DNA from: Ignavibacteria bacterium
GTDB taxonomy: Bacteria; Bacteroidota; Ignavibacteria; Ch128b
Direction: 5' to 3'
Length of the DNA stretch: 45,418 nucleotides
Assembly (NCBI GenBank): GCA_016873845.1
Contig: VGVX01000013.1
Span: 1 to 45,418 of the forward strand
Both the position numbers and the translations under genes were made by a program. The notes beneath the pieces were generated by a model. It was not told the origin of the DNA. It did no database searches and was given only the letters and a program-made list of their open reading frames with translations. Shown piece by piece: positions 1,209 through 39,580 of the stretch; position 1 is the stretch's first letter; the number at the start of each line of letters is the position of its first letter.

Positions 1209-1261
1209 TTGATGATCAAAACAATTTTACATTTTAATTTTTGTATTTTAACTTAAATTCG

Positions 1262-1334
1262 TACGCCCGGAGGGAGTCGAACCCCCAACCCTTGGTTCCG
1301 AAGACCAATGCTCTATCCATTGAGCTACGGACGC
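1262..1334 (-). tRNA. tRNA-Arg (anticodon TCG)
   Basis: This is a complete 73-base cloverleaf on the minus strand. The acceptor stem is GCGTCCG/CGGGCGT (with a G-U first pair and discriminator A), the D stem is GCTC/GAGC, the anticodon stem is TTGGT/ACCAA around the loop CTTCGGA, and the T arm is GGGGG-TTCGACT-CCCTC. The anticodon TCG reads CGA and related arginine codons. CCA is not encoded. It lies 109 bases from tRNA-Arg(ACG) in the same orientation. Confidence 0.96.
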
Positions 1335-1443
1335 AATCAATTGCAAATTGAAAAATGTGAATTACATAATGTGATTCTCAGCTCTGCTAAGTTTGTTATA
1401 AAACATTTTATATTTTTCAATCTCGACTTTTCAATGAGCTTTG

Positions 1444-1517
1444 TACACCCGTAGGGATTCGAACCCCAAACCTTCTGATCCGTAGTCAGATGCTCTATCC
1501 AATTGAGCTACGGGTGC
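1444..1517 (-). tRNA. tRNA-Arg (anticodon ACG)
   Basis: This is a complete 74-base cloverleaf on the minus strand. The acceptor stem is GCACCCG/CGGGTGT, the D stem GCTC/GAGC, the anticodon stem TCTGA/TCAGA around the loop CTACGGA, and the T arm TGGGG-TTCGAAT-CCCTA. The anticodon ACG carries the A34 that TadA edits to inosine; tadA itself lies nearby at 118-582. CCA is not encoded. Confidence 0.96.
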
Positions 1518-1645: not shown

Positions 1646-1752
1646 TGCATTCGGTAGAATTCCAAACCTTCTAATCTCCCGATTTCATCGGGATCAGATG
1701 CTCTCCGTCTAAGGCGGATTGAGTTTACCTGCCGTAGGCTAACTACGAATGC
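1646..1752 (-). pseudogene. Broken tRNA-Arg-like gene carrying three short palindromes
   Basis: On the minus strand this locus follows the order of tRNA-Arg(ACG) but is interrupted. The acceptor stem GCATTCG/CGAATGC is still a perfect 7-bp pair and differs from the intact tRNA at both strands, so the changes are compensatory. Short blocks matching the D arm (CTCAA, GAGCATCTGA) and the variable region (AGAAGGTTTGG) remain. Three insertions break it: an imperfect palindrome before the D stem (about 1724-1742), a 15-base palindrome in the D loop (1704-1718, one wobble mismatch) and a 17-base perfect hairpin in the anticodon loop (1677-1693, arms TCCCGAT/ATCGGGA). The T arm is also shortened by about four bases and the anticodon is lost. 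It cannot work as a normal tRNA. Confidence 0.75.
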
Positions 1753-1916
1753 ATTGATTACTAATTCAATAGAACAATGTATTTTGAAAAACTTATTGCA
1801 ATATAATTTTTACGGCAATTACTTTCAATGAATTTGAATTGGCATTGTTTTAGTCAGATCATTAGATAATTTGAAGTTAAGTCAGAAAATTAAAACAGAA
1901 AATCTGGAGTGACCAA

Positions 1917-28225: not shown

Positions 28226-30502
28226 CTAATATACCGATTCTGTTGCTTTCGTTTTCTTTATCAGAGAAATGCTCATTAGTAATAAAATTAAAAATATAAC
28301 CATACTGAATGCAGCCGCATAACCATAGCGATAAAGGTTAAATGCAGCTTTATAAACATATGAAACCAATATATGTGTTTGATCCGATGGTTCACCTGCA
28401 TTACTTACAAGCCAAACAACATTCAAATTATTAAACGTCCATATTATCCCAAGTGTAATAGCCGGAATTAGCACAGGCTTAATCAATGGGATTGTAATAC
28501 TTTTAAGCTTGTGAAACCACCTTGCACCTTCAATATCAGCTGCTTCATAAAGTTCTTGTGGGATGCTCTGCAGAGCGCCCAATGAGATTATCATCATAAA
28601 AGGAAATCCAAGCCAAACATTTGTAAGAATAACTGCAAGAAAAGCTTCTGTTGGACTTTTTAACCATTCGACAGCAGGGAGCATTAAATATTTAGTAAAG
28701 ATTAGGTTAATTGAGCCATACTCGTAGTTAAACATTCCGCGCCATGTCAGAGCAACAATATACTGTGGAATTGCCCAAGGCAGAATCAATAGAGTTCTGA
28801 AAATTCCTTTACCTGGAAGTGAACGATTTAACAATAGTGCTAATGCAACACCAAGCACAACATGGAAGAACACGTTTGAAAAAGTCCAGAAGATCGTCTT
28901 TAAAAATACCGAATAAAAAACCGGCTCTGAAAAAACTTTAACATATTGATCGAAACCAATTATTCCCCAATCACTTATATGCCTTAAGTTCATATTGGAA
29001 AGGGATAAAACTACATTATAAAAGAATGGATAAAAGATTACTAACCCCATCACAATAAGAGCGGGTAATAAAAAGAAATAAGCAAACCGATTCTCTTTAA
29101 ATGTCAGTATGAACGAGATGCATGTCTTCCGCGAGAGAATAATCAAAATGAAAATCCCAATTCCAGCAATTATGAAAAAGATCTGCTCCGCCGATTCAGA
29201 TGTCACATCTTCCTTCAGTTCAGCAATTTTCTTAACAGCATCCTTCTGCATCTGAATTGCAGCTTGTTCTGGACCGATTGTTCCTCCAAGAACAGCTTGA
29301 TAACTCGGTCTCATTGCATCCCAAATTGCACGCATCTCAGACACAATTGGCATTGGTTTGCCGAATTCAATTTGTTTTTGTGAATTTTGAAGAATCTCGT
29401 CCTTCAAGATGAAAGGATCTTGATAGACTTCTTTTCGTGTTGGAAATGTATTCAATTGTTTTGCTGTCTGAAGTTGGTTCTCGGGAGACAATAAAAATTC
29501 CATAAGCTTTTTAATGATCGATAGCTTATCATCTTTCACATTTGCGTTGATTGAAAATCCTTTTGCTGACACCATTGGCGCAGCTCGCAGTCCAGTTTCC
29601 TCAATCAGAGGTAATGGGGAAATACCATAATCGATTCCTGATTTACCGTAACTTGCCCAAGACCAATCGCCGTTGATCAGCATTGCGGCTCTTCCCTCCT
29701 TGAAAAGTACATCTGCGATTTCGTAATCAGCTTCATTTGGAATAATTTTATGCTTATCCCTAAGCTCTGCGATAAATTTTAACCCACTTATCATCGCTTG
29801 CGAATTCAGAGTTGGATTAAGACTATCGTCAAATACCCAGCCGCCATATCCAGTTAAGAATGGAATGAAGAAGAATGGTTCTGTGTAGTTCCAGACAAGT
29901 CCGTATTGATCAGTCTTTCCATCATTGTTTTTATCAAGAGTTAATTTTTTTCCAATCTCGATGAGTTCCCTATCTGTTTCTGGTGGAGATTTTAAAAGAG
30001 CTTTATTGTAGACGAGAGTTAAATGATTCCCAAGTTTATCAGCCAGCATCCAAAGTTTGCCATTGCTGTAGACTTTTGCTTTTTCGTTAAAATTGTTTAA
30101 GTACTCCTCAGAAAAAATTTCATCTAATGGCTTGATGATTTTCATTATTTCGAATGGACCGACTTGATCCTCAGGACCGTAAACTAATTCAGGACCTTGA
30201 CCACCGATTGCAGCGATTATAAATCCAGATCGAAGTTCCTCAGTTTCTTTATAAAGTTGTGTGACTTTAATTTCATGATTCAACTTCATAAAATTATCGA
30301 GATGCCGCTGAAGTACTTCTCTTTCATCGACTCTCATCTGATGCCAAATAATAATTTCATTCGGATCGGATTTCTTCCCACAGCCCATCGCAATCAAACA
30401 AAGAAAGAGAATGGCAATTATAATTGATACACGATGCTTAATGCTTATTAAATCTGTGAAAACCTGTCGGTAGTCAGGCAAGTTCTGCTCAATCCGAGTC
30501 AT
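28226..30502 (-). CDS. Fused sugar-binding protein and ABC permease (MalE-MalF type)
   Basis: This 758-residue protein joins two normally separate transporter parts. Residues about 25-41 form a lipoprotein signal (hydrophobic stretch, then AMGC). Residues about 45-430 are an extracellular solute-binding protein: IIIWHQMRVDER, AAIGGQGPELVYGPED, GRAAMLINGDWSW and PMVSAKGFSI. A membrane helix follows (AEQIFFIIAGIGIF), then a permease from about 470 with RFAYFFLLPALIV, several helices and the EAA loop YEAADIEGARWFHKL. The frame is uninterrupted across the join. The first 20 residues derive from an intergenic-type repeat, so the start (ATG 30502) is uncertain. It is 10 bases after the amylase gene. 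Confidence 0.9.
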   Translation of the reverse strand: MTRIEQNLPDYRQVFTDLISIKHRVSIIIAILFLCLIAMGCGKKSDPNEIIIWHQMRVDEREVLQRHLDNFMKLNHEIKVTQLYKETEELRSGFIIAAIGGQGPELVYGPEDQVGPFEIMKIIKPLDEIFSEEYLNNFNEKAKVYSNGKLWMLADKLGNHLTLVYNKALLKSPPETDRELIEIGKKLTLDKNNDGKTDQYGLVWNYTEPFFFIPFLTGYGGWVFDDSLNPTLNSQAMISGLKFIAELRDKHKIIPNEADYEIADVLFKEGRAAMLINGDWSWASYGKSGIDYGISPLPLIEETGLRAAPMVSAKGFSINANVKDDKLSIIKKLMEFLLSPENQLQTAKQLNTFPTRKEVYQDPFILKDEILQNSQKQIEFGKPMPIVSEMRAIWDAMRPSYQAVLGGTIGPEQAAIQMQKDAVKKIAELKEDVTSESAEQIFFIIAGIGIFILIILSRKTCISFILTFKENRFAYFFLLPALIVMGLVIFYPFFYNVVLSLSNMNLRHISDWGIIGFDQYVKVFSEPVFYSVFLKTIFWTFSNVFFHVVLGVALALLLNRSLPGKGIFRTLLILPWAIPQYIVALTWRGMFNYEYGSINLIFTKYLMLPAVEWLKSPTEAFLAVILTNVWLGFPFMMIISLGALQSIPQELYEAADIEGARWFHKLKSITIPLIKPVLIPAITLGIIWTFNNLNVVWLVSNAGEPSDQTHILVSYVYKAAFNLYRYGYAAAFSMVIFLILLLMSISLIKKTKATESVY

Positions 30503-39436: not shown

Positions 39437-39495
39437 CCTCCTTTATTTTTGTTTCCGTTTCCGAAAACGGCATACCAACAAAAGAGGCTGCCGTT
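39437..39495 (-). promoter_or_regulatory. Riboswitch expression platform with switchable pairing
   Basis: On the minus strand AAAACGGCA, which overlaps the 3' side of aptamer stem P1, is perfectly complementary to TGCCGTTTT a little downstream. The latter can instead form the hairpin CCGTTT-TCGG-AAACGG. Around that hairpin, CCTC and TTTTGTT can pair with GAGG of the ribosome binding site and AACAAAA. No T run follows, so control is more likely at translation than at termination. The mechanism is inferred from pairing by eye. Confidence 0.55.
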
Positions 39496-39568
39496 TTCCT
39501 ACGCTGGTATTATCCAGATCAGGTTCAGGGGTTTGATCTCAGCCTGTACAACAAGCACCCCCAACGGG
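39491..39568 (-). promoter_or_regulatory. TPP riboswitch (THI element) aptamer
   Basis: The minus strand contains the conserved THI-box segments in order: GGGGGTGCTT, CAGGCTGAGATCA, AACCCCTGAACCTGATC, and CCAGATAATACCAGCGTAGG, closed by P1 CCGTT/AACGG. These match the TPP-sensing riboswitch. It lies about 60 bases upstream of the TonB receptor start and only 12 bases after the mltD stop codon. TPP binding should lower expression of the receptor, thiN and the symporter. Confidence 0.96.
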
Positions 39569-39580
39569 ATTAAGATTTAA

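Follow-up and report, generated by a model that had tools for sequence, protein, structure and literature searches.

The window analysed here (the whole 45,418-nucleotide stretch of contig VGVX01000013.1, from an Ignavibacteria bacterium) carries near its start two intact tRNA-Arg genes and, upstream of both, a copy of tRNA-Arg(ACG) that spans the full length but is defunct (Table 1). The initial annotation had described this copy as a former tRNA invaded by three different short palindromes. Its origin from a real tRNA is borne out by alignment with the intact tRNA-Arg(ACG) gene, and the acceptor stem is indeed perfectly paired with compensatory differences from its neighbour, both strands being changed (GCATTCG/CGAATGC vs GCACCCG/CGGGTGT in the intact gene). 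The T-arm is eroded in the alignment, and ARAGORN and Rfam call the two intact tRNA-Arg genes only. The copy nevertheless folds better than its shuffles, both as DNA (z -3.17, 1 of 200 shuffles as good) and as RNA (z -2.74, 2 of 200). A BLAST search of the locus against its own genome returned no second copy. Nor was a second tRNA with the same acceptor 5' strand found in the genome: the 11-mer occurs at two places, and ARAGORN calls no tRNA at the other. No GIY-YIG ORF was found anywhere in the window. Elsewhere in the window, a TPP riboswitch is present on the minus strand (39479-39572; RF00059, 79.1 bits).

Table 1. Features of the tRNA-Arg region, in window coordinates.
Feature	Position	Strand	Basis or remark
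Intact tRNA-Arg (anticodon TCG)	1261..1334	-	ARAGORN, Rfam
Intact tRNA-Arg (anticodon ACG), downstream of the copy	1443..1517	-	ARAGORN, Rfam
Hairpin-bearing tRNA-Arg(ACG)-like copy, no longer a tRNA	1646..1753	-	Alignment; ARAGORN and Rfam silent; folding z
Acceptor 3' strand CGAATGC	1647..1653	-	Differs from the intact gene, as does the 5' strand
Anticodon-loop hairpin TCCCGATTTCATCGGGA (+ strand)	1677..1693	-	TCCCGAT-TTC-ATCGGGA, perfect; two G001 copies match it in site and type
D-loop hairpin TCCGTC-TAA-GGCGGA (+ strand)	1704..1718	-	One G-T pair; site common to two G001 copies
Weak hairpin, RNA-sense AGCCTACGGCAGGT	1727..1740	-	Stem of 3 bp, GCC-GTA-GGC; D-arm/D-loop region
Acceptor 5' strand GCATTCG	1746..1752	-	Perfect pairing with 1647-1653

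The three palindromes are of unequal quality. The one in the anticodon loop is perfect, and a palindrome scan found it to be the sole perfect stem of at least 7 bp and at least 50% GC within positions 1-1750; the D-loop palindrome holds up with its G-T pair, whereas the third is weak, although on the + strand it is identical at 10 of 11 positions to an 11-nt hairpin, TGCCGTAGGCA, of a copy in another genome of the same genus (G001). Their placement in loops also stands, but two of the three share the D-arm/D-loop region. A palindrome at 30463-30478 (CCTGTCGGTAGTCAGG), proposed as a relative, has perfect outer arms of 4 bp only and lies in a non-tRNA stretch; we judge it unrelated.

Hairpins in the genome of the window

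The genome-wide hairpin search suggested by the initial annotation succeeded for one sequence and failed for another: CCCGAT...ATCGGG occurs at eight sites (reversed control, none), but the exact TCCGCCT...AGGCGGA has no match. Six of the eight sites were placed, two of them in tRNA copies, two in stretches that are terminator-like by sequence, one in 23S rRNA and one in RNase P RNA (the last two by Rfam), and the hairpins inside these two RNAs may be native there. An RNase P RNA class A match in the same genome (L013, 1332-1833, G000:C27) extends over 502 nt vs 367 positions of the model, with CCCGATTTTTATCGGG inside, and possibly carries extra hairpin insertions within a functional RNA. In a 381-kb sample of the genome, 45 GC-rich hairpins were observed vs 28 expected, and hence there has been no massive hairpin dispersal in this genome. 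TCCGTCA..TGACGGA constitutes a separate small palindrome family here. The palindrome TCCGTCANNTGACGGA also recurs in the sampled genome (L055 at 779 and 2993, L058 at 15015, L065 at 8804, L066 at 339), and its L058 copy sits inside a tRNA-Arg-like copy.

Related copies beside other tRNA genes

At the corresponding tRNA-Arg pair of G001, three related hairpin-bearing copies are found, partly truncated and with a decaying D-loop hairpin, and two of them share the D-loop and anticodon-loop hairpin sites with the window copy in the alignment. The T-loop is split in G001 between TTC and GAN (GAA in one copy) by two tandem 11-nt hairpins, both in one of these two copies and in a 3' fragment of tRNA-Arg(TCG). 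Two further copies lie beside tRNA-Arg in G023, which belongs to another family, and none was found within 330 bp of tRNA-Arg(ACG) in four genomes of the same family (G002-G005). Random and targeted stretches revealed copies of the same kind at tRNA-Lys, -Gly, -Ile, -Met, -Thr and -His, and the expected recurrence of loop hairpins at RNA genes is thus confirmed. Many related units lie between terminator-like sequences and have no tRNA 5' end. Unit lengths range from about 112 to 386 bp, with a GIY-YIG ORF or no ORF, and tandem arrays are common, as at the tRNA-Thr of G179, where 11 units of about 112 bp follow one another.

A search for extra tRNA-tail copies yielded 23, of which five were dropped as products of a false tRNA in a repeat (L072); the 18 retained all carry hairpins as judged by eye (imperfect in L291), in a set that is not fully unbiased since L314, L315, L319 and L325 were chosen for interleaved hairpins and nuclease genes. 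The discarded locus holds a palindrome cluster of its own (L072, 1588-3757, G029), made of AACAAGGGGTTGCAACCCCTTGTT and CCCCTCTCC..GGAGAGGGG.

A double hairpin in the T-loop

The split T-loop was searched for as GGTTC-[NNCC NNN GGNN][NNCC NNN GGNN]-GANTCC with at most one mismatch. This pattern was found in 48 of the 391 genomes of the class, and a reversed control pattern in one. A collection of 84,980 species contains at least 119 loci. Those listed fall almost only in Bacteroidota (37), Ignavibacteriota (35), Balneolota (15), Fidelibacterota (9) and Calditrichota (6), near tRNA genes of many kinds; candidate division LCP-89 accounts for two, five have no phylum and the remaining 10 are spread over seven further phyla. 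Cultured carriers include Marinoscillum furvescens, Tangfeifania diversioriginum and Litoribacter ruber. Eleven loci with poor pairing and no tRNA were set apart by eye as noise, and so do not form an independent control for pairing; 10 of them are outside the Bacteroidota-related phyla of the other loci and one has no phylum. One noise locus (L231) is from Fibrobacterota, which we take to belong to the wider FCB superphylum. The viral collection gave a single locus, on an IMG/VR contig (L276, 2320-2352), where the T-loop double hairpin stands behind a short anticodon-arm-like stretch; this contig is a possible vehicle.

Among the 154 matches listed, any intact tRNA found nearby is on the same strand except for three matches of locus L256, and its 3' tail is usually identical to that of the copy (18 of 18). 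Within one genome, the hairpins keep their shape from locus to locus but not their sequence. In 125 distinct double hairpins, the four stem pairs that the pattern leaves free form in 116, 124, 123 and 124 cases, with up to three main pair types each, and we claim covariation for these four only because the CC/GG inner pairs are imposed by the pattern. The loops vary as well: loop 1 is mostly R-N-A (GAA 39, AAA 27) and loop 2 its mirror image T-N-Y (TTC 37, TTT 27) across the 125 sequences, a symmetry that hints at a role as DNA.

Small GIY-YIG genes often accompany the hairpins

Where 250-600 bp separate the tRNA from the hairpin, a small GIY-YIG ORF lies between them in 15 of 17 cases, as compared with one of seven at 150-249 bp and none of 47 below 150 bp. 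We read the short-distance copies, that of the window among them, as ORF-less derivatives. Among the loci listed, a GIY-YIG ORF occurs within 700 bp of the hairpin in 26 of 108, vs 5 of 1047 random points in the same loci. Viewed from the side of the nuclease, 15 of the 29 small GIY-YIG ORFs in 16 genomes have a tRNA within 500 bp, in every case on their own strand (other ORFs, 28 of 832). All ten ORFs tested (80-119 aa from stop to stop) passed the PF01541 cut-off with a match confined to the catalytic domain, and two gave a weak additional match to the T5orf172 model. Nine records were retrieved for one Ser-type ORF, all below 60% identity and 80% coverage, with no close phage relative among them.

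On a tree of 79 GIY-YIG ORFs, the tRNA isotype needs 22 changes, vs a mean of 47.5 after shuffling (none of 200 shuffles as low); with 104 columns for 79 rows, we take clustering alone from this tree. The Ser-associated ORFs of Ignavibacteriota, Bacteroidota, Balneolota, Calditrichota and Fidelibacterota intermingle. From their sequences, the lineages would read as target-specific and as either crossing phyla or very old. The tree contains no Arg-associated group, and the tRNA-Arg copies of G001 and G023 yielded no GIY-YIG ORF. One clade of 11 ORFs has no tRNA within 700 bp; not all such nucleases therefore belong to the proposed tRNA-homing family. L297, which falls in this clade, is related to a locus in the genome of the window (L308, 998-1810, G000:C50) with tandem 486-bp units, a GIY-YIG ORF and long palindromic flanks, where no tRNA was found.

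The genome of the window has ORF-bearing elements of its own. GIY-YIG ORFs accompany hairpin copies beside tRNA-Lys (C93, L312) and tRNA-Met (C42, L015; C28, L310), a GIY-YIG ORF and a hairpin-bearing 3' copy lie beside tRNA-Asn (C72, L286), and a tandem pair with GIY-YIG ORFs and anticodon-stem hairpins stands between tRNA 3' parts (C75, L309). These examples tie the putative remnant in the window to an active type of element in its own genome. The tRNA-Asn gene of L286 also houses a group I intron (1801-2047, G000:C72; RF00028), so that two kinds of element meet at one tRNA gene. Elsewhere, five GIY-YIG ORFs in a row are found downstream of the tRNA-Asp of G179.

Filled and empty sites

The tRNA-Glu(CTC) gene of genus g32 provides both alleles of one site. 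In G190 and G092, which are empty, it runs directly into a terminator and the downstream gene; in G225 and G294, which are filled, the T-loop is interrupted precisely at TTC^GA by an insert, and that terminator now comes after the displaced 3' end. The dimensions that we give were read from one locus, that of G225, where the insert measures 326 bp; G294 has the same architecture. On the left, 18 nt of tRNA 3' end, GACCCCCGTACGCGCTAC, rebuild the tRNA and restore a full T-loop, and the GIY-YIG ORF comes next. On the right, after the ORF, a 17-nt half-site of the tRNA 5' part, GCGGAGATCACGGGTTC, precedes a 22-nt double hairpin, TCCCGAAGGGA + CTCCTACGGAG, which breaks this junction. At these tRNA-Glu loci the element thus supplies the missing gene end and displaces the native one. 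The notion that short palindromes are themselves the invading elements is not supported by this comparison, in which the hairpin of related loci is the right-hand end of a larger GIY-YIG-bearing insert.

Other loci vary the arrangement. At tRNA-Gln (L287), -Pro (L303) and -Lys (L306), it is the anticodon loop that holds the hairpin, and the displaced copy begins in the region of the D-loop; the choice of loop therefore differs between lineages. The order is mirrored at the tRNA-Glu of G308 (L319), where the hairpin copies stand upstream and the intact tRNA downstream, and at the tRNA-Lys of G001 (L363) the upstream units end exactly at GGTTC; the window copy has this upstream arrangement. For the tRNA-Thr locus of G179, no match was found in G348 for a filled/empty comparison, and no clean empty site emerged at tRNA-Pro in genus g16 or at tRNA-Lys in the window's own genome.

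Discussion

Based on the evidence presented here, we infer that the window copy belongs to a family of tRNA-homing elements as an ORF-less remnant, and this explanation, taken as a whole, is probably correct. We read the palindromes as scars left by a tRNA element that a nuclease drives, and not as independent invaders. The sequences themselves show the architecture and end structure, the exact insertion point, the rebuilt tRNA, the hairpin at the second junction, the association with GIY-YIG ORFs and their clustering by isotype. The active element would encode a very small free-standing GIY-YIG nuclease and enter a loop of a tRNA gene, either the T-loop at TTC^GA or the anticodon loop. The nuclease presumably cuts this loop, and the element would spread through repair of the break via two short half-sites and the outer flanks. 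One end of the insert would bring the missing part of the tRNA and so restore an undamaged gene. At the opposite end, a short copy of the other half-site and, behind it, one or two small perfect hairpins would ensure that the displaced copy can neither serve as a tRNA nor become a renewed target; the hairpins may in this way stop re-cutting. Repeated insertion or duplication would build tandem arrays, and later loss of the ORF would leave 3' partial copies downstream of the gene (3' type) or 5' copies upstream of it (5' type, as in the window).

Several observations count against this scheme. Many hairpin copies have no ORF nearby; the window has no GIY-YIG ORF, nor was one found in association with tRNA-Arg. 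The rebuilt tRNA keeps an intact T-loop, and a nuclease recognising the tRNA alone would therefore go on cutting it. The ten ORFs tested, of 80-119 aa, match the catalytic domain alone, which leaves target recognition to be explained. Finally, the compensatory changes in the acceptor stem of the window copy are unexpected for pure decay.

These compensatory changes would fit a different reading, in which the window copy is a structured RNA with a function of its own that arose from tRNA-Arg, such as a tRNA-like regulator or decoy, and the hairpins are parts of its fold. The folding scores and the hairpin sites common to the window copy and G001 also speak for such a role. We nevertheless regard it as quite unlikely, since the copy has no counterpart at tRNA-Arg(ACG) in G002-G005 over the 330 bp inspected, the copies of G001 are partly truncated with a D-loop hairpin in decay, and many related units sit between terminator-like sequences without a tRNA 5' end.

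The short palindromes could instead be mobile in their own right, like REP sequences or mitochondrial GC clusters, and land in the loops of structured DNA; they do occupy loop centres in many tRNA copies, and CCCGAT...ATCGGG is present at eight genome sites and its reversed control at none. This is very unlikely given the filled/empty pair, in which the hairpin arrives as one end of a 326-bp insert; moreover, the hairpin sequence changes between loci of one genome while its shape stays, and the intact tRNAs beside the copies are uninterrupted. Tyrosine-recombinase elements also use the symmetry of the T-loop and anticodon loop in tRNA genes, and the copies might accordingly be scars of their attachment sites, as the sublocation at these two loops and the 3' partial tRNA copies downstream of intact genes would suggest. 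The inserts of 326 bp or units of about 112-386 bp, carrying a GIY-YIG ORF or none, and the hairpins at the junction itself make this origin highly improbable.

Within the homing explanation, a more specific model can be put forward tentatively, although we consider it unlikely as it stands. The GIY-YIG protein, reduced to its catalytic domain, might recognise the tRNA gene by its shape, with the T-arm or anticodon arm extruded, and not by a long sequence; the double mini-hairpin, with its mirror symmetry, might be a working DNA component of the mobility mechanism. This would amount to structure-guided tRNA homing in the Bacteroidota/Ignavibacteriota superphylum, with many isotype-specific lineages. 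The family raises the questions of how a nuclease of 80-100 aa locates a single tRNA gene and how a host whose rebuilt site is intact can survive.

If the homing explanation is true, these elements of roughly 0.3 kb rank among the smallest autonomous mobile elements, and the family would account for the puzzling occurrence of partial tRNAs and palindromes in several phyla. The elements would enter the loops of tRNA genes, targets that rank with the most conserved in a genome, rebuild these genes and mark the leftover with hairpins. The family also offers a compact set of site-specific nucleases sorted by tRNA isotype.

As a candidate family of free-standing GIY-YIG homing elements, it displays the catalytic domain, a setting outside introns at 39 of 40 loci and, at tRNA-Glu, precise filled and empty alleles; the window copy itself is ORF-less. 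Its closest parallels are found in phages and in fungal mitochondria. SegB, a free-standing GIY-YIG enzyme of phages T4 and T6, is reported to cut inside phage tRNA genes at RAWTSGAAC and to drive amplification of the tRNA and segB into tandem repeats (PMC13096335). The likeness extends from a small GIY-YIG gene beside tRNA genes to cutting at a T-loop-fitting motif and tandem amplification (PMC13096335); in our own reading, GATTCGAAC, the reverse complement of the common T-loop GTTCGAATC, would fit the SegB motif. SegB differs in acting in phage genomes, through homologous recombination and microhomology, and the passages on SegB describe no rebuilt tRNA end or hairpin junction (PMC13096335). 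In the mORFs of fungal mitochondria (Allomyces atp6; Glomus atp6, atp9, cox2 and nad3), a nuclease ORF brings along a copy of the target gene's 3' end, which restores the gene and pushes the native end downstream, and one of the four Glomus cases is a GIY-YIG (PMC3630166). The bacterial tRNA elements likewise carry the end of the target gene and displace the native one, but mORFs concern protein genes of mitochondria and mostly LAGLIDADG enzymes, and the term 'hairpin' is absent from that paper (PMC3630166).

Group I introns with GIY-YIG enzymes also occur in tRNA genes, including the tRNA-Asn of this genome, whereas splicing is not needed by the tRNA elements, which stand outside the rebuilt tRNA. 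An intron of this kind reached the Rfam gathering score at one of 40 loci (L286), most of which had been chosen for their GIY-YIG matches. REP elements, Rickettsia palindromic elements and mitochondrial GC clusters or double-hairpin elements are short palindromes dispersed in genomes; here, in contrast, the hairpin comes together with a tRNA half-site and a nuclease gene. We found no description of a bacterial-chromosome system of this kind in the open-licence literature. What appears to be new here is the union, on bacterial chromosomes, of free-standing GIY-YIG homing as in SegB, restoration of the target end as in mORFs and a structured hairpin junction.
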